In this document: positions 16,715 to 58,216 of the stretch, one piece after another
How positions within the stretch are numbered: the first letter of the stretch is position 1
Layout of the letters: each line of letters opens with the position of its first letter
Source of the DNA: a virus
Strand: one strand, 5' to 3'
Virus record (IMG/VR): IMGVR_UViG_3300021964_006691
Coordinates: 1-63,513 of that record
Length of the DNA stretch: 63,513 nt
Notes under the pieces: generated by a model
Databases searched by the model: none
What the model was told of the DNA's origin: nothing
The model's input: only the letters and a program-made list of their open reading frames with translations
Position numbers and translations under genes: made by a program

Positions 16715-16987
16715 ATGCCTAAAGTAGCAAGATTCATGGACATGGTTGGAACTGGTGTTATCCAAAACACCAAGCCTACTGGCGTCTTTGTAGAAGGCAG
16801 ACCAATAGCAACACTAGGAGATATTGTATCCACACACGGTGAAGCACCGCACATTGGTGCCAGTATAGTAGGCGCATGTTCTACAACAGTATTTGCAGGA
16901 AATATACCAGTTGCAATGGTAGGTTCTAAAGCAACATGTATGCATTCTGTAACAATGGGAAGTTTTACAGTTAATGTAGGACTGTAA
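16715..16987 (+). CDS. PAAR-domain spike-tip protein
   Basis: This 90-residue protein has the PAAR pattern throughout: short beta segments with PTGVFVEGRPIATLGD, then VSTHGEAPH, then ATCMHSVTMG. The His and Cys residues fit the Zn-binding site at the cone tip. PAAR proteins cap the VgrG/gp5-type spike (T4 gp5.4) and pierce the outer membrane. A dedicated late promoter fits a virion part. It overlaps the radical SAM gene by TAATG. Confidence 0.85.
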   Translation: MPKVARFMDMVGTGVIQNTKPTGVFVEGRPIATLGDIVSTHGEAPHIGASIVGACSTTVFAGNIPVAMVGSKATCMHSVTMGSFTVNVGL

Positions 16988-18021
16988 TGTCCAATCTAGT
17001 TTCTGTACGTGGCCCCCACGCCAGAAACAATACCAACACAATAAGAATACAATGGAACATGGGTAATTCATGTAATTACAAATGTGAATATTGCCCTCCT
17101 ATTTTACACAATGGAACCAAGCCCTGGTTAGACAAACAGCAATACATAGATGCAATCATACGCCTATCAACGCATTACAGCACCTTAGACAAACAGACAG
17201 AGTATGAGTTAATAGGAGGAGAAGTTACTGTTATACCAGGCTTTGAAGAAATAATTAAAACAATAAGCGAACACAATAGTACCAGTATTGTATACACAAA
17301 TGGTAGTAGAACAGTTAAATGGTGGAGCAAAGCGAAACAATATATGGATAGTGTTGTGCTAACTTACCACCCACAATCACAAGATTCCGAGCATTTTAAA
17401 GCAGTTATAAACGAGATAAAGGATTATGTACATATTGATGTAAACATCGCTGGAATAGGCGGAGACGTGCTCAAATTGGGCGAATTTGCAGAGGAATTGC
17501 GTGATTTATTTAAAGGCTGTAAACATAATGATTACAATATGGTAAGTATATGTGTTAAAACCATGTATAAGAAGCTCTTAGGACGTCAGAACAAGCAGGA
17601 AACATATTGGCAATACACTACAGAAGAGCAAGATGTATTACAACGCCCTGGAATAAAAGCACAAATATTGCCTGAAGTAGAGAAAGTAAACATACCAGAT
17701 GCTGAGTTTACACCAGACCCTGAGCCAGACCCAAATGCCTGGATGACAGAATTCTTGTATGATGATGGTACTGCTACTTATGTTCAAAGCCATCAAATTA
17801 TAGACAAGAGACTAAACAGTTTTCAGGGTATGAGATGTCATCTAGGATTTGAAAGTCTTAATATAGATGCCAGTGGAGATATGTATAGTAGTTGGTGTGG
17901 TGCTGTAAACTTTGGTAATATATCTGATAAAGATTGGAATTTACCACAAAGCAAAACTACCTGCCCTTATGCTTTTTGTAACAACATAAGTGATATATCT
18001 ATAACAAAGACTTTAGATTGA
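16987..18021 (+). CDS. Radical SAM protein with C-terminal Cys cluster
   Basis: 344 residues. CNYKCEYC (CX3CX2C) near residue 30 binds the SAM-cleaving 4Fe-4S cluster. IGGEVTVIPGFEEII is the GGE strand and IVYTNGS the following strand. The C-terminal MRCHLG, IDASGDMYSSWCG and TCPYAFC resemble an auxiliary (SPASM/twitch) cluster site. SPASM enzymes often modify peptides or sugars; the substrate is not evident. It converges with the minus-strand gene at 18013, overlapping 9 nt. Confidence 0.8.
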   Translation: MSNLVSVRGPHARNNTNTIRIQWNMGNSCNYKCEYCPPILHNGTKPWLDKQQYIDAIIRLSTHYSTLDKQTEYELIGGEVTVIPGFEEIIKTISEHNSTSIVYTNGSRTVKWWSKAKQYMDSVVLTYHPQSQDSEHFKAVINEIKDYVHIDVNIAGIGGDVLKLGEFAEELRDLFKGCKHNDYNMVSICVKTMYKKLLGRQNKQETYWQYTTEEQDVLQRPGIKAQILPEVEKVNIPDAEFTPDPEPDPNAWMTEFLYDDGTATYVQSHQIIDKRLNSFQGMRCHLGFESLNIDASGDMYSSWCGAVNFGNISDKDWNLPQSKTTCPYAFCNNISDISITKTLD

Positions 18022-18930
18022 TTTGATATTTTGTTTAAACGATGCACTTGTTTGTAGAAAATCAGGATTTTGAAGTATTCTTTTGTATTCCCAATCAGGA
18101 ATATATGTATTAGTTACAAAGTTTCTATCAGGTACAGAGTTATGTATAAATCCTTTATAACAAACAGAAAGCTCATTAAATTTATGTTCTGATAAGTTCT
18201 GCCTAGGCAAACTGGTTTCTAATAAACTTTTACCTTGTATAGGACGTAAAAAAGTTTTTAATAAATGATACCCTACTACAGTTTTCACTATACCAGTATC
18301 TTTGACATCTAAATCCTTTAATGAATTATAATTATAATTTGATTCATCAATGTCTAAACTGTGTACATCATGGTACCATTTTCCGTCTATTGACATAACA
18401 TGATTGATATCATGACCTACTGTAGGGCCAGGAAAGTATTCTACTTCTACATTGTATTCATTTTCCTGCACAGCAGAAATATCTGATAAATTTTCTTTAT
18501 AAACATAATAATGAATTTTATTGCAATATTTTAAATTTTTTTGTATGGATTCAAATTTTATGTCTGGTGTTACGATACTGATGGTCTTTTTAAAACCATA
18601 TAATTTGAATATACAATATGAATCACAATTTTTTAGTAAATGTATTTTGTCTGACACACCATTGGTTATACAAATAATTTGTATATTATTACCATCACAA
18701 AAATTTATGAATTCCTCTATTTTATAATATTCTAAAGGATCTCCAAAAACTGATTCCAAAATAATTTGGTTGGGATTTTCTGCCAGTAGGAAGTTCGTAA
18801 TTTTATTGAAATCTAAATGTTCTTCTGGAATAGCTCTTTTACCAAATCTATGATCTATAAAAGAGCCCTGATTATCGAAACTAATAAAAGAGTTATTTTT
18901 AGAGGTAAGATCTATAAAAACTTTTTTCAT
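18013..18930 (-). CDS. Radical-SAM-like fold protein lacking the cluster cysteines
   Basis: 305 residues. Residues about 50-95 (IILESVFGDPLEYYKIEEF, then IICITNG) match the GGE-strand and TNG-strand region of radical SAM barrels. The first 60 residues, where CX3CX2C should be, contain no cysteine. It is therefore probably a divergent relative that lost SAM cleavage, and may act as a binding partner. It lies tail to tail with the active radical SAM gene. A start ATG at 18930 follows an AGGGT ribosome-binding site. Confidence 0.55.
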   Translation of the reverse strand: MKKVFIDLTSKNNSFISFDNQGSFIDHRFGKRAIPEEHLDFNKITNFLLAENPNQIILESVFGDPLEYYKIEEFINFCDGNNIQIICITNGVSDKIHLLKNCDSYCIFKLYGFKKTISIVTPDIKFESIQKNLKYCNKIHYYVYKENLSDISAVQENEYNVEVEYFPGPTVGHDINHVMSIDGKWYHDVHSLDIDESNYNYNSLKDLDVKDTGIVKTVVGYHLLKTFLRPIQGKSLLETSLPRQNLSEHKFNELSVCYKGFIHNSVPDRNFVTNTYIPDWEYKRILQNPDFLQTSASFKQNIKSI

Positions 18931-18954
18931 ACCCTGTATTAATTAATTTTCCGT

Positions 18955-20466
18955 CTATACGCCTTGTTCTTTTAATTTTGCCGCATTAAAATTAACAACT
19001 TGGTCGTAACTAGCATCATCGTCATCATAGTAAAACTCTGATGCTCCTGATAACTCTGACTCTGAAGTAGCATATATACCCACAGTAAATTCTTCTATAG
19101 AATATGTTCCACTAACATTACCTGACATTGAGAAGTGATAAAGTCCTGGTACTGTGACTCCTGTCATATTTGCTGAAGTATCAATGTTTAAGTTTCTGTC
19201 TGTTCCAGTACCTGTAATTGTTAAAAATGGTGGTAATGGGCTAAAATCTGCTACTTCTATCTCAGTAACACCATCTTTGATTTGTAGGTCAATAGTCTGA
19301 GTCTGACCTGATGCCAGTGTAGTTATAATACCAGAAGGTAAATTTGTAAAAGTCTGATCTGTAACTTGAGGACTTACACCTATAGATTGTTTAAGTTCGG
19401 CTTCAGTTATTCCGGTATCTGTTAAAAGAGTAGCATCAAAAGATACTGAAGTACCTCTAAATTCTACCATTCCTTCTGAAATCACATATGATTTTATTTG
19501 AAAGGCGTCTGAGTTTGGATATAAGTCTGTATATTGAGCTACAAGACCACCTATCTGAGCCGCCGATACTGATGTACCACTTGCTGTAGTGTATGCTGAG
19601 TTGTCAGTAAAATTAATTACGGAAACACTATCACCTAATGCATAAATATCGTTTTCTTCACCTAGGTTACATTTACCGCCATCTAGTTCTGCAACATGTC
19701 CTCCACTGTTCATTGCACCTACTGTAAGTACACTATCAAGACCTGCTGGTGAGTAGTTATCTGTATCTGCACCTTGGTTACCTGCCGCGGCAACAATAAC
19801 CATATTATTATCTTCTAATTGTTTAAACTTGGAGTCAATCAAACTATTTTTTGATGCTGTCCAACATGCAACCACCGTCTTTGTTTGACTTGGTGTGTTT
19901 GCATTGTGGTGTACCTGAATTGCTTCTAAGGCATCTATAACATCTGCTACTGTTCCTGTATAAGGGTTAGTATTCATCATTCTGACATTATGTAGTGTGG
20001 CATCTTTAGCAGTACCAATATTAGCACCTACAATTAAACTTGCCATTACAGTTCCATGACCGTCTGCATCTGCAAAATCACTAGCAAAACCTGTGTATAA
20101 ATTATTAACAGTACGACCTGTAAACTCTGTATGAGTTGTATTTACACCTGTATCTAGCAAATATACATGTTCACCACTTCCACTACTCTGTGCATTATAA
20201 GTAACATCTGTATTACCTATTTTGTTACACATCATAGTTAAATGATCGGTATTAAATGCTGGTGTAACTACTTTTTCTGCATCTACTAATTCGCCGTATT
20301 TTTTTCCGCTAATTGCATCATATTGTGCTGTCTCGGCTGTGACTTTATAAGTCATAGCAAAACTATATGTTTTGGTTATGGTACCACCTGCGTCTGTAAT
20401 TGCCGTTTGGGCCGCAGTTGCATCAGCATGTACTGACGAATCCATTTCGATTATGTATTCTGCCAT
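18955..20466 (-). CDS. Subtilisin-like S8 serine protease
   Basis: 503 residues with the full S8 active site: D105 (LLDTG), H137 (DGHGT), N230 (AAAGNQG) and S299 (SGTSVSAA). Residues 1-70 look like an I9-type inhibitor prodomain. Residues after about 365 form beta-rich C-terminal domains. No signal peptide is seen. It is transcribed from a minus-strand late promoter, so it is likely a virion-associated protease acting on assembly partners or host surface protein. Confidence 0.85.
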   Translation of the reverse strand: MAEYIIEMDSSVHADATAAQTAITDAGGTITKTYSFAMTYKVTAETAQYDAISGKKYGELVDAEKVVTPAFNTDHLTMMCNKIGNTDVTYNAQSSGSGEHVYLLDTGVNTTHTEFTGRTVNNLYTGFASDFADADGHGTVMASLIVGANIGTAKDATLHNVRMMNTNPYTGTVADVIDALEAIQVHHNANTPSQTKTVVACWTASKNSLIDSKFKQLEDNNMVIVAAAGNQGADTDNYSPAGLDSVLTVGAMNSGGHVAELDGGKCNLGEENDIYALGDSVSVINFTDNSAYTTASGTSVSAAQIGGLVAQYTDLYPNSDAFQIKSYVISEGMVEFRGTSVSFDATLLTDTGITEAELKQSIGVSPQVTDQTFTNLPSGIITTLASGQTQTIDLQIKDGVTEIEVADFSPLPPFLTITGTGTDRNLNIDTSANMTGVTVPGLYHFSMSGNVSGTYSIEEFTVGIYATSESELSGASEFYYDDDDASYDQVVNFNAAKLKEQGV

Positions 20467-20513
20467 TTTGTAAACTCCTAATTAAAAATAATTGATAACT
20501 ATACTATATAATG

Positions 20514-20521
20514 TATTTATC
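20514..20521 (-). promoter_or_regulatory. Minus-strand late promoter GATAAATA
   Basis: TATTTATC on the plus strand reads GATAAATA on the minus strand, 47 nt upstream of the S8 protease start, with a TTAGGAG ribosome-binding site next to the gene. Confidence 0.6.
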
Positions 20522-20547
20522 ATATTTTAAGATATACAGGTCATTAA

Positions 20548-21573
20548 ATGAGTATTAAAAACGAAGTCAGATTACCAGGAATAGATATGAATCTTTCCAG
20601 TATGCCTTATGTTAAGATATATGCTGAAGAAACAGACAAAAAACTTTTAGACTGCATATCTGATATTTTAAAAGATAAACAAGACGTAAACATAGCATTA
20701 AGTGGAGGTTTAGACAGTCAGTTTATGTTATATTGCTGTTTAGAGTTAAACAAGAATATTACACTTTTTACATATAGGTCTCTTTGGGAAGATGTAGTTA
20801 TAAACTCTAGTGATGTATATAATACTGAGCAACTTGCTAAAAAGTTTAATTTAGAACATCATATCATAGATATAGACCTTAAAAAGTTTTTTGATAATCT
20901 AGAACATTTTAAGTATAGTAAAGATTTTTTTAATACGTCACCACAAATTTCTGTTCACTTTCATTTTATAAAACAGATAAAGGAGCAGTTTGGTATACAG
21001 CATTTAATTTTGGGAGGTGAAGCGCCAACGTTTACATACAGTGACTTTGAAACTAGTAACAATATTAGACTCATGGCGGTAGGTGCTTATTTGAATCATG
21101 TTGCACCTTATTACTTGTTTTGTGAAAGTATAGGTTTAGAATGTATAAAAGATATTTTTTATCATAGTAAAGAATGTGTGTATGCAGGTTTCAAAATAAA
21201 TTTAGATCTTTTAAAAAAGGAAAATATATATGGTCTTACGAATACAGGAACAAACTACCGTAGCGACAACTACAGATATAAGACGAGTTACTATAAGGAA
21301 ACTTTTCCTAATATCACCCCTCAACCATTTGCCTTCACTGGATTTGAGACACTGAAAAAAATACTAGCATCTGAAACTGGAAATTACAATCAATTTGATA
21401 TATTATACAGGTATCCTCAAGTAAAATTAGTTCCCGAATTTATTTCAAACAGACCCAAATTACAAAAAAATATGTTTTACGATAGTAAAATAATAGATCT
21501 TTTTAAAGAATTTACTAAGTATATACAACAAAACGATTGTAAAAACGTAAGTACATATACCTTCGATTTCTAA
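20548..21573 (+). CDS. PP-loop ATPase, asparagine-synthase-like
   Basis: 341 residues. The PP-loop SGGLDSQ near residue 56 binds ATP and adenylates a substrate. The following layout (TLFTYR, later LILGGEAP) resembles the C-terminal domain of asparagine synthases and related N-type ATP pyrophosphatases. No glutaminase domain is present. The substrate is unknown; amidation of a peptide or surface sugar would fit the radical SAM and glycan genes nearby, but this is inference. Confidence 0.65.
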   Translation: MSIKNEVRLPGIDMNLSSMPYVKIYAEETDKKLLDCISDILKDKQDVNIALSGGLDSQFMLYCCLELNKNITLFTYRSLWEDVVINSSDVYNTEQLAKKFNLEHHIIDIDLKKFFDNLEHFKYSKDFFNTSPQISVHFHFIKQIKEQFGIQHLILGGEAPTFTYSDFETSNNIRLMAVGAYLNHVAPYYLFCESIGLECIKDIFYHSKECVYAGFKINLDLLKKENIYGLTNTGTNYRSDNYRYKTSYYKETFPNITPQPFAFTGFETLKKILASETGNYNQFDILYRYPQVKLVPEFISNRPKLQKNMFYDSKIIDLFKEFTKYIQQNDCKNVSTYTFDF

Positions 21574-23504: not shown

Positions 23505-23532
23505 TTGACAATCGTTATTAAATGTGTATAAT
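23505..23532 (+). promoter_or_regulatory. Sigma70-type promoter TTGACA-16-TATAAT
   Basis: Perfect TTGACA at 23505-23510 and perfect TATAAT at 23527-23532, 16 bp apart, directly upstream of the ferredoxin gene. Confidence 0.85.
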
Positions 23533-31332: not shown

Positions 31333-31704
31333 ATGACAAACTTAAACACAACAAACCAAAGCAAGGACAAAATTGTATCTGTACCAGGATATCATATTGG
31401 TTCTTTTACTTGCTATAATGCAAACAATGATGATAGTGTTAATATCCAACTTACTAGTTTAGAAGAAATGTGGTATGGGCACGAAGAAAACATAGATCAT
31501 CCAGAAGGTTCAGAATACCCAGTAAGTATAAATGTTCCTCACATGAAGGTGATGAGAGAAAGAGTTTTTGATAGTGTTCTAAATAGAACTGGTATTGACA
31601 TTAGAGATTTTGACAGTATTATACATGCTTCAACATCTCCTGGCAGAGATGAGAAAGGTAACATTATCGAAAATGGTAATGAAAACATTATTAGGAACGT
31701 ATAA
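31333..31704 (+). CDS. Hypothetical protein upstream of DNA ligase
   Basis: 123 residues, acidic, with no recognised motif (YHIGSFTCYNANNDDS; RTGIDIRDFDSII). It is cotranscribed with and overlaps the ligase gene (TAATG). Confidence 0.5.
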   Translation: MTNLNTTNQSKDKIVSVPGYHIGSFTCYNANNDDSVNIQLTSLEEMWYGHEENIDHPEGSEYPVSINVPHMKVMRERVFDSVLNRTGIDIRDFDSIIHASTSPGRDEKGNIIENGNENIIRNV

Positions 31705-32981
31705 TGAATCCTTGGAAGATCATACAAAAATTGGAATCTGATAACAGCAGACTTTTTAAAGAGTCTGTTGTTGCTGATCATATTGATAACGAAGAATTTG
31801 TTATGGGTGCCAAGTATGCACTTGACCCTCTTGTAACTTTTGGTGTACAACAAGTACCCTTTAGTGAAACTGATGGCAATGGTATTAGCAGTTCATCTTT
31901 TTATGAAATTGCTGACAAGTTAATTAATAGACAATTAACAGGACATGCGGCTCGTGATGCTATACAAGAGTTATGTGATAGTGCTACTAATGAGCAATGG
32001 AACGACTGGTACAGACGAATCCTTATTAAGGACTTTAGATGTGGTACTAGTGTAAAAACATTTAATGGTGTTAAAAAAGGTATTATTCCAGTATTTGGTT
32101 GTATGTTGGCACATGACGGAGCAAAACATCCTAAAAAAATAAAAGGCGAGTGTATGGTTGAATACAAATACGATGGCGTAAGAGTTATTGCTATTGTACA
32201 AAATGGTGATGCTACTTTGTATTCACGTAATGGCAAATTACTTCCTAACTTTCCTCATATTGAAGAGGCACTAGGCAAGCCAGAGTTTGAAGGACTTGTA
32301 TTTGATGGCGAGGTAATGAGCGAAGACTTCCAAACACTTATGAAACAGGTACACAGAAAAACTGGTGCTCAAACAGAGGATGCCTACTTGGCTGTGTTTG
32401 ATATGCTTACCCTTGCAGAATTTAATGCAGGTGGTACAACTAAAAATGCTGAAGTAAGACGCGGCAGACTTATAGAATTAGACCATGCTAACTTACTTCC
32501 AGACAGCATTAGAATAGTTGATGCATATAGTGTAAACTTTGATACTGAAGAGGGTAAAGCAGAGTTTGATAAACTAAACAAAACAGCATTAGCCGAAGGT
32601 TATGAAGGCTTAATGATTAAGCCCATAAACGAAGGGTACAAGTGTAAACGTTCACATGCTTGGTTAAAGGTCAAACCTTTTATTGAAGTAACACTTAAAG
32701 TTATTGCATTAGAAGAAGGCACAGGCAAAAACGAAGGCATGTTAGGTGCTCTAGTTGTTGAAGGTGAAGACGATGGTAAGTTTTTCCATGTAAATGTGGG
32801 TAGTGGACTTACTGATGACATGCGTAAGGATGTTTGGGCGGCACAGGATAGTGTTATTGGTCAACTTGTAGAGATCAGAGCTGATGCGGCAACACAATCA
32901 CAAGATGCTGAAGATACTTGGAGCCTCAGGTTCCCAAGGTTTAAGACCTTTAGAGGTTTTGAACTAGGAGAAAAAATATAA
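31704..32981 (+). CDS. ATP-dependent DNA ligase
   Basis: 425 residues. Motif I EYKYDGVR places the adenylated lysine at K155; VFDGEVMSEDF is motif III, EGLMIKP motif IV and HAWLKVKP motif V, followed by an OB-fold region. It seals nicks in phage DNA replication and repair, like T4 gp30. Early expression follows from the upstream sigma70 promoter. It overlaps the next small gene (TAATG). Confidence 0.92.
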   Translation: MNPWKIIQKLESDNSRLFKESVVADHIDNEEFVMGAKYALDPLVTFGVQQVPFSETDGNGISSSSFYEIADKLINRQLTGHAARDAIQELCDSATNEQWNDWYRRILIKDFRCGTSVKTFNGVKKGIIPVFGCMLAHDGAKHPKKIKGECMVEYKYDGVRVIAIVQNGDATLYSRNGKLLPNFPHIEEALGKPEFEGLVFDGEVMSEDFQTLMKQVHRKTGAQTEDAYLAVFDMLTLAEFNAGGTTKNAEVRRGRLIELDHANLLPDSIRIVDAYSVNFDTEEGKAEFDKLNKTALAEGYEGLMIKPINEGYKCKRSHAWLKVKPFIEVTLKVIALEEGTGKNEGMLGALVVEGEDDGKFFHVNVGSGLTDDMRKDVWAAQDSVIGQLVEIRADAATQSQDAEDTWSLRFPRFKTFRGFELGEKI

Positions 32982-50763: not shown

Positions 50764-51303
50764 ATGTTGGAAACTGGATATATGACTGCTAAAGCACTAA
50801 TGATGACTTTGATGTTATCAGATGGTGTAAACCTAAATGAACATACTGTTGAAGAAACATATTGTATGTCATTAAATATATATTATGAAGCTCGAGGAGA
50901 AAGTTGGAGAGGTAAGACAGCCGTTGCCCATGTAACTCTTAACAGAGTAAAACACGAAAAATATCCTAACACAGTTTGTGGTGTTGTATTACAAGCAAAA
51001 CTCTGGAAGGGAAACCCCATCAGAGATATGTGTCAATTTGCATGGTATTGTGATGGCAAAACAGACATTCCACAACTAAGATACAAAGCACAACCTAGAA
51101 AAAATAAAGCAATTAAACCCAACGTAAGAGATTGGGAGAATAGTGTTGCTACAGCAATACAAGTTATGGAAGGTTATAGCAGAGACATAACACAAGGTTC
51201 TACACACTATTTTAATCATAATATTTCAACACCCAGTTGGAGTACTATATATCCCACAAAAACTATCATAGGAAACCACACATTCCAAAAACGTAACGAC
51301 TAA
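50764..51303 (+). CDS. SleB-type cell-wall hydrolase
   Basis: 179 residues. NIYYEARGESWRGKTAVAHV (catalytic Glu) and QFAWYCDG match the Hydrolase_2/SleB family, which cuts peptidoglycan glycan strands. It is the best endolysin candidate in the window. A sigma70 promoter makes early expression possible, which is unusual for lysis. Confidence 0.85.
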   Translation: MLETGYMTAKALMMTLMLSDGVNLNEHTVEETYCMSLNIYYEARGESWRGKTAVAHVTLNRVKHEKYPNTVCGVVLQAKLWKGNPIRDMCQFAWYCDGKTDIPQLRYKAQPRKNKAIKPNVRDWENSVATAIQVMEGYSRDITQGSTHYFNHNISTPSWSTIYPTKTIIGNHTFQKRND

Positions 51304-51308
51304 GATAC

Positions 51309-51316
51309 GATAAATA
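51309..51316 (+). promoter_or_regulatory. Late promoter GATAAATA
   Basis: GATAAATA lies 36 nt before the SNase gene, with TAGGAG as ribosome-binding site. Confidence 0.6.
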
Positions 51317-51352
51317 TATACTGTTATAATACACACAATTAGGAGTAACAGT

Positions 51353-51841
51353 ATGTATGAATATAGATGTAAAGTTCTGAAAGTCGTTGATGGAGACACG
51401 GTAGATGTAGACATCGATCTAGGATTTGGAGTTTGGTTAAAAGACGAAAGAGTTCGTATAATGGGTATTGATACGCCTGAAAGCAGGACGTCAGACAAGG
51501 TAGAAAAGTTATTTGGTTTAGCGGCAAAAGAAAAACTTAAAAGTATGTTAGGCAAATCACCTACTTTAAAGACGCAGGTAAACAAAGACGGCGAAGACAT
51601 GAAAGGTAAGTTTGGTAGAATACTAGGCGACTTTGATGTTTATGATGCAGAAAAAGATGCATGGCGTCCAGCAACAGATGTACTTATTGAGACAGGAAAT
51701 GCAGTAGCATATTTTGGTGGAAGTAAAGAAGAAGTACAAGCCAAGCATATGGTAAACAGAGATAAATTATTGCGAGAAGGTTTTGTTAGTAAAGAAGACT
51801 TTGATAAAGCAACAGCAATAATGGAAACAAAGAAAAAGTAA
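51353..51841 (+). CDS. Staphylococcal-nuclease-like thermonuclease
   Basis: 162 residues. KVVDGDTVDVDIDLG, VRIMGIDTPE and FGRILGD are the SNase-fold motifs with Ca-binding Asp and catalytic Arg/Glu. It lacks a signal peptide, unlike the secreted nuclease after it, to which it is coupled by TAATG. Host DNA breakdown is a likely role. Confidence 0.85.
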   Translation: MYEYRCKVLKVVDGDTVDVDIDLGFGVWLKDERVRIMGIDTPESRTSDKVEKLFGLAAKEKLKSMLGKSPTLKTQVNKDGEDMKGKFGRILGDFDVYDAEKDAWRPATDVLIETGNAVAYFGGSKEEVQAKHMVNRDKLLREGFVSKEDFDKATAIMETKKK

Positions 51842-52716
51842 TGAACAAATTATTTTTTAGTTTATCCCTTCTACTGTTTTCTACATTTAGTTTTGGATGG
51901 TGGAACACAGGACATGCAACAGTATGTCAGATTGCAGAAAATCATTTAACACCAGAAGTAAAAGCAGAAGTAGATAGACTTTTAGACAATAAAAGTTTTG
52001 CAGAAAGTTGTAATTGGCCAGACTATGTTAGACCAAACAGATATAATACTTTTCCTTGGCATTTTGTAAACATACCTAAATCTAAATTAAAAGTTGAGGC
52101 AAGTGATTGTCCTCCAGAATCCTGTGTTCTCGAAGCAATACAAATGCATATCAGATTACTTAGAAATAAAAACTTACCTGATTCAGACAGAGCAGAAAGT
52201 TTAATGTTTTTAGGACACTTTGTAGGTGACATTCATCAACCATTGCATGTAGGTGAAAAAGAAGATAAAGGTGGCAGTGGCCATGAGGTTAATATAGATC
52301 AAGCAACGCAAGATGCTCTTAACTATCAAGGCTATAACGAATGGCTTAAATTAAATAAATTACAAGTACATCAGTTAGCATTAAGGGAACCTAAATATCC
52401 ACCACACATAAAGAAATCAAATATGCATAGTATTTGGGATGGTGCTGTACTACAACATAAACTAATCAAAGATGATATTGCATGGTATGATTATGCAGAT
52501 AATTTAGCAAAACGTAAACCCACAGTACTGTTAGGAAACCCTGTGATGTGGGCACAAGAAAGCAAAGACGTATTAGGCTTACACAGTTTTGGATACAATG
52601 TAGAGATAGAAGACATTGATGCAGAGTACTTAGAACATCATTTACCTGTATTGGAGCAACGCCTAGTTCTAGCAGGATACAGACTTGCTACAATACTGAA
52701 CCAGATTACACTATAA
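51841..52716 (+). CDS. Secreted S1/P1 nuclease
   Basis: 291 residues. Residues 1-19 form a signal peptide ([17 protein letters not shown]) and the mature chain begins WWNTGH; the N-terminal Trp and later His/Asp residues (HFVGDIHQPLH; SIWDGAV) bind three zinc ions in this family. It cuts single-stranded DNA and RNA in the periplasm or outside. It is coupled to the SNase gene. A phage-made periplasmic nuclease could block other incoming DNA or salvage nucleotides. Confidence 0.87.
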   Translation: MNKLFFSLSLLLFSTFSFGWWNTGHATVCQIAENHLTPEVKAEVDRLLDNKSFAESCNWPDYVRPNRYNTFPWHFVNIPKSKLKVEASDCPPESCVLEAIQMHIRLLRNKNLPDSDRAESLMFLGHFVGDIHQPLHVGEKEDKGGSGHEVNIDQATQDALNYQGYNEWLKLNKLQVHQLALREPKYPPHIKKSNMHSIWDGAVLQHKLIKDDIAWYDYADNLAKRKPTVLLGNPVMWAQESKDVLGLHSFGYNVEIEDIDAEYLEHHLPVLEQRLVLAGYRLATILNQITL

Positions 52717-52721
52717 AATAC

Positions 52722-52749
52722 TTGACAATGCCTAAATAGAGTGTATAAT
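52722..52749 (+). promoter_or_regulatory. Sigma70-type promoter TTGACA-16-TATAAT
   Basis: TTGACA 52722-52727, TATAAT 52744-52749; drives the QueD-like gene. Confidence 0.85.
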
Positions 52750-52774: not shown

Positions 52775-53263
52775 ATGGCAAAAAGATTTTACTCAGGTAA
52801 AACATATACCCACGCAACTGGTCACAGTTGTGCATTTAGACAATGGAGAGCAGATAGTCACTGTAACTTAATACACGGCTATTCTCTACAGTTTGAATTT
52901 GAGTTTGGTTGTGAGGAATTAGATGATCGCAACTGGGCAGTAGACTTTGGCGGTCTAAAAGAACTTAAAGAATGGTTAAAATTTATGTTTGACCATACTT
53001 ACTTGTTAGCAAGTGACGACCCAGAGTTCCAAACATTTCAAGATCTAGCAGATAAAAATCTAATAGACTTGAGAGTTGTTGGTGCTGTAGGTTGTGAAAG
53101 ATTTGCTGAACAGGCCTTTGACGAAGCAGATAAAATTGTAAAAGATATCAGCAATAATAGATGCTGGGTTCAAAAGGTCACTGTAAGAGAACATGAAGCC
53201 AATAGTGCAACATGCGAACTTGCAGACACTCAGAAGATACGATTTGTAGACTCTGAGAAATAA
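52775..53263 (+). CDS. queD: 6-carboxytetrahydropterin synthase-like (QueD/PTPS family)
   Basis: 162 residues of the PTPS fold (SCAFRQWRADSHCNLIHGY; WAVDFGGLKELKEWLK; FDHTYLL; VTVREHEANSA). The zinc motif reads IHGY where QueD has HGH, so one His ligand is changed, a feature I have seen in related alphaproteobacterial phages. QueD starts the 7-deazaguanine route to queuosine. The other route genes are not in this window, so host enzymes or genes elsewhere would be needed. Confidence 0.75.
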   Translation: MAKRFYSGKTYTHATGHSCAFRQWRADSHCNLIHGYSLQFEFEFGCEELDDRNWAVDFGGLKELKEWLKFMFDHTYLLASDDPEFQTFQDLADKNLIDLRVVGAVGCERFAEQAFDEADKIVKDISNNRCWVQKVTVREHEANSATCELADTQKIRFVDSEK

Positions 53264-53373: not shown

Positions 53374-55326
53374 ATGCTATTTGGTATACTCACATTAATC
53401 ACAGCACTTGCTATTGCAGGTGTGGCCGCCTGGTTCAGTATCGCTGGACTTATGATATTCTTTGGCGGAATGCCAATGAGTGTAGCCATTATGGCTGGTA
53501 CATTAGAAGTAGGTAAACTACTTACAGCAAGTTGGCTTTACAGATACTGGAACGAAACATCAATACTACTCAAGACATATCTGACCACAGCAGTTGTAGT
53601 TCTGATGGTTATAACATCTGCAGGTATATATGGTTACCTGTCTAAGGCCGCCAGTGATGTATCTAGTGACGGTGCTGTAGCCTTTGCAGAAGTAGAACGT
53701 GTTGACGGACTTATTCTCAGAGAAGAAAATAAGATTGCCATTATAGAGGATAGGATAATAAGTGTAGGTGGTAGTGTTGATGTAAGTGAAAGTATTGAAC
53801 AACAGGAAACTATCAGAGATGGTGCATGGCAAAGAGTACAAGGTGATATAGATTATGCACAAGGACAAATAGACAGACTCAGAGACCAACTCGCAGTATT
53901 AGATAAAGCAGTAAACGATCTAAGAAACAAAGGTGTAGAAGTTGTTGTAACAGATGAGGGTGGTATATTCCAGGGAGATACCACAGAAAAGATAGACTAT
54001 GTTGCACAGGCAAACGACTTATACAACCAACAAGAACAGCAACGTGCAGATATCAAAACAGATATAGACAAGCAACAAGCAAATATAGATGCATACCGAC
54101 TACAAGCACAAGATACAATTAACGGTGCTAATGCAGAAATAAACAGACTTAGGAACACTAGTTCCAATCAGCAAGATGCAAACATTGAAAAGATAAATGC
54201 TTTTAACACTGATATAGACGCAATTTACGACAATATCGCAGTACTTAAAGACAGTAAATTTGAAGCAGAAAGCAAAGTAAGAGATTTAGAAAGAGAAATA
54301 GGCCCAATCAAATATGTAGCAGAGCTTCTTTATGGTAGTTCAGACCAATCTGTTATGGACAAAGCAGTAAGAATATTCATACTGTTATTTGTTTTTGTAT
54401 TTGACCCTTTAGCAATTATGTTATTGATTGCGGCTAACCAGACATTACTTAGGTACGGTATTAATTTAGAAAGCACAGGACCAAAAGAACCGCCAAGAGA
54501 CCCAGAAGGTGATCCAGGAAGTTTTTGGGATAGTGACTTTGAAGAACAAAGCAGAGAAATATATGGCGACAATATGCCAGACCTTCCTAGTGCGGCAGAA
54601 GATGCCGCAAAGGCAATGGCCGAATCGGCTTCCGAAAAAAAAAGAACGGAAAAATTAAAAAAGGCCTTGTCGTTATTGGAAACAAAATACAAAAAAACAT
54701 TAAAAGCTCTTGACGATAAGCCTAAAGAAGTTATAATAGAAAAAGAAGTCGAGAAGATAGTAGAAGTTCCGGTTGAAGTAATTAAAGAAGTGGTAGTTGA
54801 AAGGGAGGTGCCAGTTGAAAAGATCGTTGAGGTTGAAGTCGCAAAAGAGGTTGAGGTCATCAAGGAGGTTGAACGAATTGTCGAAAAGGAAGTTCCAGGA
54901 CCAGAAAGAATTGTCGAAGTCCCAGGACCAGAAAGAATTGTCGAAGTCCCAGGACCAGAAAGAGTCGTCAGAGTTGAGTCCTCAGAAGGAGTAAAAAGGT
55001 TAAATAAAGAAATAGAAACATTACAAAACGAATTGCAAATATTAAGATCTAAAAAACCTGAGACTATAGAAAAAATAGTTGAAGTCGAAAAAGAAGTTCC
55101 AGTCGAAGTCGAAAGGCCAGCATCAGGTGATTTAAAAGACGCCGCACGGTTAATGGCAACTAGTGAATTAAATAAAGAAGATTTATCTGAAGCACAGATA
55201 TTAGAATTGTTACAAAAGTCTTCTGAAGAAGAAGTAAAACGTAAACTGGGCTTTTGGGCAGTATCATTACCTAAAACAGATGTAGTTAAAGAGCCCACTA
55301 ATAAAAAATACATAGGTAAAAAATGA
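53374..55326 (+). CDS. Large coiled-coil membrane protein, DUF4407-like
   Basis: 650 residues. Three or so helices lie in residues 1-95, a coiled coil in about 100-325, one helix in about 330-355 ([20 protein letters not shown]), and a long charged tail. The layout resembles DUF4407. The tail has repeated VEKEV/VEVPVE units and three VPGPERIVE units encoded by a 27-nt tandem repeat. It ends ATGA with clpX, so the two are coupled. A membrane platform is inferred. Confidence 0.6.
54895..54975 (+). repeat. Three 27-nt tandem units coding for VPGPERIVE-type repeats
   Basis: Units 54895-54921 and 54922-54948 are identical; unit 54949-54975 differs in its second half. They are in frame in the coiled-coil membrane protein. 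Confidence 0.9.
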
Positions 55327-56615
55327 GCGAAGATAAATCATTAACCTGTAATTTTTGTGGTAAAAAACGTGAAGAGGTAGAAAAACTAATCGCTGGACCT
55401 GGTGTTTATATATGTGATGAGTGTGTTCAACTAAGTTATGGTATTGTATCCCAAGAAGACGATCATGATTTTGGTAACTTAGATTTTGATAATCTCCCAA
55501 GACCGTCTGAAATAAAAAAATTCTTAGATCAGTATATTATGGGCCAAGACTCAGCAAAAGAAATATTGTCTGTAAATGCCTATAATCATTATAAACGCAT
55601 AACTAATATCATACAAGATGTAGAACTAGATAAGTCAAATGTGTTATTACTAGGACCTACAGGCACAGGTAAAACACTACTTGCAAAAACATTGGCCAAG
55701 AAACTTCAGGTGCCTTTTGCAATAGCAGATGCAACTACACTAACTGAAGCAGGTTATGTGGGAGAAGATGTAGAAAGTGTACTAGAACGTTTGCTAATAT
55801 TATCTGATTTTGATATAGAGTTAGCCCAAAGAGGTGTTGTTTTTATAGATGAGTTAGATAAAAAAGCTCGTAAGTCAGAAAACAATACAGCAACAAGAGA
55901 TGTGTCAGGTGAGGGTGTGCAACAAGCATTACTAAGACTCATAGAAGGCACAAATTGTAAGATTAAAATGAACGCAAAAGCAAAGTATGGTGATGATTTT
56001 ATCGAGTTTGACACATCAAATGTATTGTTTATATTAGGTGGAGCATTTGTAGGCATAGAAGAAATTATAGAAAAACGATTAAAGAGTAAAAGTAAAATAG
56101 GTTTTAACAGTAAGATACTAAGTGATACAGACAAAAATCAATTACTCACAAAGATTAATGCACAAGACATTGTTACATACGGTTTAATACCTGAGCTGGT
56201 AGGTAGGTTACCACTAATAGCAACTATGGATAATCTATCTAAAGATCAATTAGTAAATATATTGACAGAAGTTAAAAATAGTATTATAATACAGGTTAAG
56301 TCTTTATTAAAACTAGACAATTTAGAGATTAAATTTTCTAAAAACTATTATGAACAGGTATCTGTGTTAGCAGTAGAGTCTAAAATGGGTGCCAGAGCAT
56401 TAAAAAGTTTAGTAGAGAACAGTTTAATAAACATTATGTTTAGGATAGAGGATTTCAATAAAACAGGTGTACAAGCCATTAGATTTGATAACTATCCAGA
56501 CAGAGGAAATAAACCAATATTAGTATTTAACGATAGAGAAGAAGTAGATACTAATTATAAATTATACAGAGGAATAGATGAGTTGGAAAAACAACGATCA
56601 CAAAAAGAACTTTAA
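55323..56615 (+). CDS. clpX: ClpX, ATPase subunit of ClpXP
   Basis: 430 residues, full ClpX layout. The N-terminal Zn site is C9, C12, C31 and C34. Walker A is GPTGTGKT (111-118), pore loop GYVG, Walker B VFIDELDK (173-180), and sensor-2 GARAL. The IGF tripeptide that docks ClpP is kept (residues 259-261). No ClpP is encoded here, so it could capture host ClpP and redirect proteolysis. It overlaps the membrane protein by ATGA and bS21 by 38 nt. Confidence 0.93.
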
Positions 56616-56991
56616 TAGTAAACGTAAGCCTTTCGCTAAAAAAGACGAGCATTATTTAGATAAGTTTAAAGGCAGAGCTATTGAAGTTAGAAACGATGAC
56701 GTAAATGGTGCAATGAGACGTCTTAAAAAAGTTTTAGAAAAGATGGACTTCCAAAAAGAATTATCTAAAAGAGAATTTTTTGAGAAACCTAGTGCTAAAC
56801 GCAAACGTATGAAGGACCAAGCAATCAAAAGAGAGAAAAAAGCAAAAGAGACAATGATAATGAGAGGTGAATGGTTACCTCCAGAGCCTACTGGTCAAAG
56901 TCATTTAAAAGGCAAAAGGCAAAAACGCAAAGCCTGGAATCAAGTAGAACGAGTAAAAGTATTAAGAAAAAGAGGTAGAGGCTCAGACTAA
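56578..56991 (+). CDS. rpsU: Ribosomal protein bS21 homologue
   Basis: 137 residues. Residues about 33-90 ([17 protein letters not shown], then [13 protein letters not shown]) match bS21. The N- and C-terminal extensions are longer than bacterial bS21 (about 70) and very basic. bS21 sits near the mRNA exit of the 30S subunit and helps initiation. Phage copies are known in pelagiphages. Its start lies inside clpX. Confidence 0.9.
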
Positions 56992-56992
56992 T

Positions 56993-57772
56993 ATGAAAAT
57001 TTCTGTAGTAAGTGGAGGTTTTGATCCACTACATTCAGGTCATATAAATTTATTAGAGCAGGCGGCTACATTTGGAGACAAATTAGTAGTGCTGGTAAAT
57101 AGCGATGACTGGCTAACTAGAAAGAAAGGCAGACCCTTTATGCCTTTTGAAGAAAGATCAACTATTATTCAACGTATGGACATGGTAGACAATGTGTATG
57201 CTGTTGATGATGCTGATGGAAGTGTAACTAATGGACTTATACAAGTTCGCGATGCATTCGGACACGATCATGATTATGTATTCTGTAACGGAGGTGATAG
57301 AGGAAAAGATAACATACCCGAAATGGCAGTAGATGGTTACACTTTTGAATTTAGTGTTGGTGGAGATAACAAAGCCAACAGTAGCAGTTGGATATTGAAA
57401 GAATGGCAGTATCCAACAGAACGCAGAGTATGGGGCGAGTTTAGTGATTTGTTTCAGGACTCAGCAGTCAGAGTTAAAGAGCTAGTAATTGAGCCTGGTA
57501 AAGGTATTAGTTATCAACGTCACTTTAAAAGAGATGAAATATGGTTTGTAAGTAAAGGACAATGTGTTGTAAAACATGGTAGAGATACAGACAAACCGGA
57601 AGAATACGATACAATTAATTTAAGAACAGATGAGTCTATACATATTAAAGTTAAAGATTGGCACCAGATTATAAATGTTAAGTCAGAACCTTGCCATATT
57701 ATAGAAATACAATATGGTAAAGAAACTAACGAAGAAGATATAGAACGTTTAGAGTACTACGACGGAGAATAA
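56993..57772 (+). CDS. Cytidylyltransferase fused to a mannose-6-phosphate isomerase-type cupin
   Basis: 259 residues. Residues 1-140 form a nucleotidyltransferase (VSGGFDPLHSGHINLLEQA with HxGH, later NANSSSWILK region) like RfaE/TagD proteins. Residues about 145-250 form a cupin (PGKGISYQRHFKRDEIWFV; DWHQIINV) like the sugar-phosphate isomerase C-terminus. Both point to NDP-sugar or heptose chemistry. The fusion is unusual. It follows bS21 by one base. Confidence 0.8.
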   Translation: MKISVVSGGFDPLHSGHINLLEQAATFGDKLVVLVNSDDWLTRKKGRPFMPFEERSTIIQRMDMVDNVYAVDDADGSVTNGLIQVRDAFGHDHDYVFCNGGDRGKDNIPEMAVDGYTFEFSVGGDNKANSSSWILKEWQYPTERRVWGEFSDLFQDSAVRVKELVIEPGKGISYQRHFKRDEIWFVSKGQCVVKHGRDTDKPEEYDTINLRTDESIHIKVKDWHQIINVKSEPCHIIEIQYGKETNEEDIERLEYYDGE

Positions 57773-58216
57773 ATGGAGATGCGACAACTTAATGAGCAAC
57801 GTGTTTGTGAAATACTAAATGATATAGTTGAGTTAGAAATGGCTGGAGTTGTTAGATATGCTCACAGTTCACTAATGGTTACAGGACCTAACAGAATACC
57901 TATTGTAGCATTCCTGCAAGAACAAGCAACTGAAAGTTTAGACCACGCCTTAATAGCAGGTGAATACATCACAGGCTTTAACGGACATCCTAGTCAGCAG
58001 ATTGCTAACATTGAAGAAAACCACGATCATAGTGTTGAACAAATTCTACAAGAAAGTTTAGCACACGAAATGGCGGCAGTTGAAAAGTATAAAGAACTAC
58101 TTGACGAAGTTGCTGATGCAAGTATAATGTTGGAAGAATATGCCAGAGGGCAGATTGGTATGGAAGAACAACATGCCTTAGAGATAAGGAAGATGCTAAT
58201 GGATTATGGATCATAA
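57773..58216 (+). CDS. Bacterioferritin/ferritin-like diiron protein
   Basis: 147 residues in a four-helix pattern: an ELEMAGVVRYAHS helix with Glu, then ATESLDHALIAGEYI (ExxH), ESLAHEMAAVEKYKEL, and GQIGMEEQHALEIRK (ExxH). These are the diiron ligands of ferritin-like proteins. It could store iron or protect DNA from Fenton chemistry. It is coupled to the fusion gene before it and the glycosyltransferase after it. Confidence 0.8.
   Translation: MEMRQLNEQRVCEILNDIVELEMAGVVRYAHSSLMVTGPNRIPIVAFLQEQATESLDHALIAGEYITGFNGHPSQQIANIEENHDHSVEQILQESLAHEMAAVEKYKELLDEVADASIMLEEYARGQIGMEEQHALEIRKMLMDYGS

Follow-up and report, generated by a model that had tools for sequence, protein, structure and literature searches.

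Which peptidase does a ClpX unfoldase encoded by a phage serve, and which proteins does it select? The locus described here raises both questions. The stretch of DNA analysed, hereafter the window, is the whole IMG/VR virus record IMGVR_UViG_3300021964_006691, a linear fragment of 63.5 kb (63,513 nt). Its first-pass annotation had described a phage ClpX that carries a ClpP-docking loop, with no phage ClpP in the window, and had proposed that this ClpX could compete with its host counterpart and direct host ClpP to new substrates or spare phage proteins. We re-examined this proposal by comparing the window with other viral and bacterial clpX loci.

The clpX gene and its product

The clpX gene (55323-56615, + strand) starts with ATG and encodes a zinc-finger AAA+ unfoldase of 430 amino acids in which one element, the RKH loop, has been rewritten. 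The protein matches the two NCBIfam ClpX equivalog models over nearly the full length, with 508.7 bits for NF003745 (cut-off 359) and 480.4 bits for TIGR00382 (cut-off 370.75), and contains the Pfam domains zf-C4_ClpX (PF06689, E 1.8e-17), AAA_2 and ClpB_D2-small. Its top hit in the PDB is Escherichia coli ClpX (E 1e-118). The alignment locates the zinc cysteines at C9, C12, C31 and C34, Walker A at 111-118 (GPTGTGKT), Walker B at 174-179 (FIDELD), the pore-1 loop at 144-149 (GYVGED), the box VII arginine at R295 and the sensor-2 GAR with R358. It also places the IGF tripeptide, which has a role in ClpP docking (PMC7112951), at I259-G260-F261 (codons 56097-56105, + strand), with the hydrophobic I265 at the position of E. 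coli V274. Profiles and alignment thus confirm the zinc domain, AAA+ motifs and GYVG pore loop reported by the first-pass annotation, and the ClpP-docking loop that it had recognized is likewise kept.

The structure predicted from a 56-sequence alignment (mean pLDDT 85.5) matches solved ClpX and ClpXP structures; an earlier model, for which six sequences had been aligned, reached a poor pLDDT of 50.8 and was discarded in its favour. Relative to the two nearest relatives, the dN/dS of clpX is about 0.10-0.12, a value poorly estimated because dS reaches 1.2-1.4. By sequence and fold, 55323-56615 is a genuine and intact ClpX, for which ATP-dependent unfolding and ClpP binding are predicted.

In a ClpX tree computed without the columns of the RKH loop, 36 RKH-less phage ClpX, including that of the window, form one group (SH-aLRT 96), referred to below as the clade, which sits within a wider group of phage ClpX (SH-aLRT 91).

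ClpP and ClpA-like proteins in related phages

Neither a match to clpP (PF00574) anywhere in the 63.5 kb nor a ClpA gene was found in the window. Taken at face value, this would suit a phage without ClpP, whose ClpX ring competes with host ClpX over host ClpP and so changes what is degraded. The conserved IGF loop and the hydrophobic residue at the V274 position are compatible with such a role, and so are the fragments of the two nearest relatives (L002 and L009), which have no clpP within 25.6 kb and 32 kb downstream of clpX, respectively.

To place this absence in context, 80 viral ClpX loci were fetched and most of their records, including all those of the clade except near-duplicates, were searched for ClpP. 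A clpP gene was found in nine records that carry an RKH-less clpX of the clade, six of them identified by this ClpX-based scan and three by a ClpP-first search. In all nine it shares the strand of clpX and lies 8-45 kb downstream of it. Within the ClpX-based scan, the outcome followed the length of available sequence: all four clade records with more than 34 kb downstream of clpX encode clpP, no clade record with less than 21 kb does, and clpP was never found upstream of clpX in clade records (up to 95 kb examined). ClpX-bearing phage genomes that were searched whole encode a ClpP-family protein in 8/8 cases, seven of which are canonical and one, LR756511, gives a weaker match only (E 7.5e-22). 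The ClpPs of the clade are canonical, with a mature length and the Ser-His-Asp triad, and three of four possess the C-terminal arginine equivalent to E. coli R192, which is needed for ClpX binding.

Since the linear fragment that makes up the window ends 6.9 kb past clpX on the downstream side, its lack of clpP says little about the phage and is best explained by this end. A ClpP in the exact lineage of the window is nevertheless an extrapolation, because none is present in the record nor in the L002 and L009 fragments. The premise of a phage without ClpP is therefore unsupported: the window stops short of the distance at which nine records of the same clade encode clpP, and the whole genomes point the same way. 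The first-pass annotation had itself named a clpP gene at another place in the genome as counter-evidence to its reading; such a gene does occur in clade relatives, although the window fragment has none. Phage ClpX could still make use of host ClpP, but this is no longer the default reading, and we regard a lone ClpX that hijacks the host peptidase as unlikely. More generally, a clpP gene missing beside clpX on a virome fragment should not be taken as the sign of a phage without ClpP.

Other Clp genes were encountered in these records. A ClpA-like double-AAA+ ATPase of about 730 aa is encoded in four ClpP-encoding records (L282:1464-4466 on contig G071, L283, L284 and L285), with TIGR02639 as the best model at a score below its cut-off. 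On G071 the gene directly follows a DnaJ gene, and three of the four records (G072, G082 and G085) carry an RKH-less clpX. G071 also encodes a DNA ligase (L208:4241) to which the window ligase (31704-32981) is 87% identical, with clpP a few kb beyond the ligase and no clpX found on that 77 kb contig; the ligase identity points to a putative mosaic exchange among these phages. The ClpX of 'Acinetobacter phage MD-2021a' (L294) was excluded from the comparison, as it belongs to a clpP-clpX pair arranged as in bacteria, on a contig of 220 kb that is probably host DNA.

A rewritten RKH loop shared by a phage clade

The RKH loop reads GGRKHP in 80/80 sampled bacterial ClpX, from genomes that were found via two conserved peptides outside the loop and are mostly Bacillota. 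In the window ClpX and the rest of the clade, a variable and mostly lysine-rich stretch takes its place and its sequence differs from one member to another. The counterpart in the window spans residues 210-229 (55950-56009, + strand), with A220-K221-Y222 in place of E. coli R228-K229-H230. The beta-strands that flank the loop (211-215 and 226-230) are retained in the predicted structure, residues 220-222 being of low confidence. The window ClpX hence lacks the typical GGRKHP motif, whose presence is not formally defining, since it is also altered in human ClpX and in several phages.

The change is concentrated in the loop. Across 81 bacterial ClpX, 144 alignment columns reach a conservation of 97% or more. 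The clade has lost 22 of these columns, namely 10 of the 12 inside the RKH loop versus 12 of the 132 elsewhere (Fisher p = 5e-8). Three of these latter 12 belong to the pore-2 loop, where the changes relative to E. coli ClpX are N195/S197/I198. By contrast with the lost columns, the equivalents of the ssrA-contact residues Y153, V154, T199 and V202 are retained in the window ClpX, as is that of K229 (K221). The RKH motif is also absent in other phages (SCTP-2, the PA5oct group and some huge phages), and the trait requires five changes across the whole ClpX tree; at the base of this diverse clade, the rewriting was probably a single event. No description of RKH-less phage ClpX was found in the searchable literature, subscription journals lying outside the search.

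What the loop does is known from other enzymes. Replacement of RKH by AAA in E. coli ClpX abolishes the degradation of an ssrA substrate (PMC7112951). R228 and H230 are critical in ssrA binding, and human ClpX, which has a leucine at both the H230 and T199 positions, does not degrade ssrA substrates (PMC7652416). Because the loop has been rewritten and the motor and docking parts have been spared, these data predict an altered substrate selection by RKH-less phage ClpX. The suggestion of the first-pass annotation that a phage ClpX might address new substrates gains support from this loop, which it had overlooked. Some degron contact may persist in the window ClpX, since K229 is retained as K221.

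The tmRNA genes of two relatives bear on the same point. Two phages with an RKH-less ClpX encode alpha-type two-piece tmRNAs (L176:14253-14774 in G010 and L304:1456-1980 in G011), whose tags, ANDNFAYEELALAA and ANDNDFAYGDYALAA, both end in ALAA. Alphaproteobacterial hosts are suggested for G010 and G011, the former also encoding more than 20 tRNAs. No tmRNA was found in the window, and RF00023 matches in relatives that were below the cut-off and tRNA-sized were left uncounted. As the tags of these two clade phages end in ALAA, either a residual ssrA recognition or another unfoldase for those tags has to be considered; a ClpX that ignores ssrA tags altogether would be surprising, except where ClpA takes care of such substrates.

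These tags, together with the variability of the loop among clade members and the retention of the K229 equivalent and of the other four ssrA-contact residues, could also be reconciled with a neutral drift of the loop, in which the phage enzyme simply does the job of host ClpX and receives its substrates mostly from adaptors or through other loops. Drift accords poorly with a loop that is invariant in every sampled bacterium and that has lost most of its conserved columns while the rest of the protein was held, and loop changes do alter specificity in E. coli; we find it decidedly unlikely.

The reading we favour, to which we assign a probability of about 0.6, is a ClpXP encoded by the phage itself, with clpX supplying its unfoldase and with its degron recognition retuned. 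The phage ClpX would form an AAA+ ring and dock through its IGF loops on a ClpP that is most likely phage-encoded, beyond the right end of the fragment. The GYVG pore would unfold proteins and pass them to ClpP for degradation. With the loop that grips ssrA in E. coli (R228, H230) replaced clade-wide, the substrate set would most likely be different from, or narrower than, that of host ClpX. While work in E. coli probed the substrate choice of ClpX by single-residue changes, the clade constitutes a natural set of variants in which to ask what the RKH loop does, with the motor and docking parts held fixed.

The clpX gene block and comparison with known systems

Directly upstream of clpX lies a gene labelled TMcc (53374-55326, + strand), whose stop codon overlaps the clpX start (ATGA). 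It encodes a protein of 650 aa with a hydrophobic N-terminus (1-44, 62-90), a further segment at 325-359 and a coiled coil. The N-terminal domain of TMcc is found upstream of clpX in 77 of the 80 viral ClpX loci versus 0/80 bacterial ones, and two of the three viral misses are cuts at contig ends. A coiled-coil artefact behind this pairing was ruled out, as the N-terminal 100 residues alone still give 77/80. Homologues of TMcc occur with no clpX next door in Pelagibacter phage Mosig, XacN1, RAS14, Flavobacterium phage immuto and Microcystis phage Mel-JY01, and TMcc is thus more than a ClpX accessory. No description of the TMcc-ClpX pairing was found in the searchable literature, with the same exclusion of subscription journals; its near-invariance in phages points to an undescribed partner, and TMcc may be a partner, an anchor or a client of ClpX.

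Downstream, a gene for a bS21 ribosomal protein with an N-terminal extension (56578-56991, + strand; PF01165, E 1.2e-11; phrog_21469) starts inside the 3' end of clpX, with an overlap of 38 bp. Of the 80 viral ClpX loci, 61 have bS21 on the downstream side of clpX, and the proximity of Clp proteases to phage bS21 has already been noted (PMC9723584); its presence may tie the block to the takeover of translation. The next gene encodes a cytidylyltransferase-like and cupin fusion (56993-57772, + strand), a neighbour conserved in the same clade. It is followed by a ferritin-like protein (57773-58216), which 16/39 clade loci share and which is absent from all other viral ClpX loci.

A perfect sigma-70-type promoter sequence (TTGACA-16-TATAAT; 52722-52749, + strand) occupies the gap before a 6-pyruvoyl-tetrahydropterin synthase (PTPS)/QueD-like gene (52775-53263, + strand), the first gene past it. 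Eight such perfect sites occur on the + strand of the window versus 0.22 expected, with none on the - strand, and a site at a comparable distance is present in L002. The promoter at 52722 probably heads the PTPS-TMcc-clpX-bS21 run. Sites in or near intergenic gaps of the window are those at 23505, 29506, 50712, 52722 and 59425 (+). Upstream of the block, 50764-52716 holds a run of cell wall hydrolase, SNase-like nuclease and S1/P1 nuclease genes. Farther away, a subtilase (18955-20466, - strand) with weak likeness to mycosin and PatA is flanked by radical-SAM-like ORFs (16987-18021, +; 18013-18930, -) and an amidotransferase-like ORF (20548-21573, +); the region 16987-21573 may represent a phage-borne cluster that resembles those for peptide maturation.

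The composition of the clpX block, with its membrane coiled-coil protein and bS21, might alternatively point to a ClpX for which ClpP is optional, and which would unfold or, as a chaperone, take apart phage complexes of replication, translation or the membrane, much as host ClpX does with Mu transposase. A role in replication was proposed by the authors of the Atu_ph07 and AP-J-162 studies, and in SCTP-2 the block comes after topoisomerase genes. Yet an IGF docking loop conserved across the clade would be unexpected without ClpP, and ClpP co-occurs wherever enough sequence exists, which leaves this reading quite improbable. That clpX is bacterial and reached the record as host DNA or through a mis-binned contig was rejected on tree and synteny and has next to no chance of being correct, although some ClpX matches from phage collections do lie on host-like contigs in the bacterial clpP-clpX order: the window ClpX is nested in a phage-only clade, phage RNR, ligase, endonuclease and bS21 genes flank it, the window is syntenic with other viral contigs, and its neighbourhood is absent from bacterial clpX loci (0/80).

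The favoured phage-encoded ClpXP can be tentatively extended. The clade may represent a phage-specific ClpX subfamily, in which the degron loop re-evolved for private substrates that the upstream membrane coiled-coil partner would deliver or localize, so that the phage would run its own ClpXP beside that of the host and leave ssrA-tagged traffic undrained. We hold this extension to be possible but rather doubtful.

Compared with E. coli ClpX (PDB 8e91, 6wrf and 6po1; about 45% identity), the window ClpX has the same domain order, zinc finger, AAA+ motifs, pore-1 and IGF loops. It differs by its RKH and pore-2 loops and by a C-terminal tail, REExDxxYKLYRGI, that is conserved among its near relatives. 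Human mitochondrial ClpX, from an unrelated lineage, shares a non-histidine residue at the H230 position (leucine versus tyrosine in the window), whereas the window keeps the threonine (T191) that human ClpX replaces by leucine at T199.

Among phages, Salicola phage SCTP-2 (gp194) and the Pseudomonas Wroclawvirus group (PA5oct-like, phi30-2) encode ClpX that are RKH-less like that of the window, from which they are far diverged on long branches. In SCTP-2, clpX is likewise immediately preceded by this membrane-protein gene, and a ClpS homologue lies two genes downstream; its loop, however, is much shorter, and bS21 is not annotated beside clpX. Bacillus phage G (gp258), Agrobacterium phage Atu_ph07 (gp2), Sinorhizobium phage Phosso and Prevotella phage Lak have genes for both ClpX and ClpP in their genomes (PMC6102473, PMC7824862, the latter a jumbo-phage survey), and Atu_ph07 combines ClpX, ClpA, ClpB, ClpP and ClpS in one phage (PMC6102473). 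Unlike the window ClpX, these four keep GGRKHP or GGRKNP and fall outside its clade in the tree; in phage G, moreover, clpP is directly upstream of clpX, whereas it is downstream in the clade. Both ClpX and complete Clp sets are already known from phages; what is new, within the searchable literature, is the RKH-less clade and the pairing of phage clpX with a membrane-protein gene.
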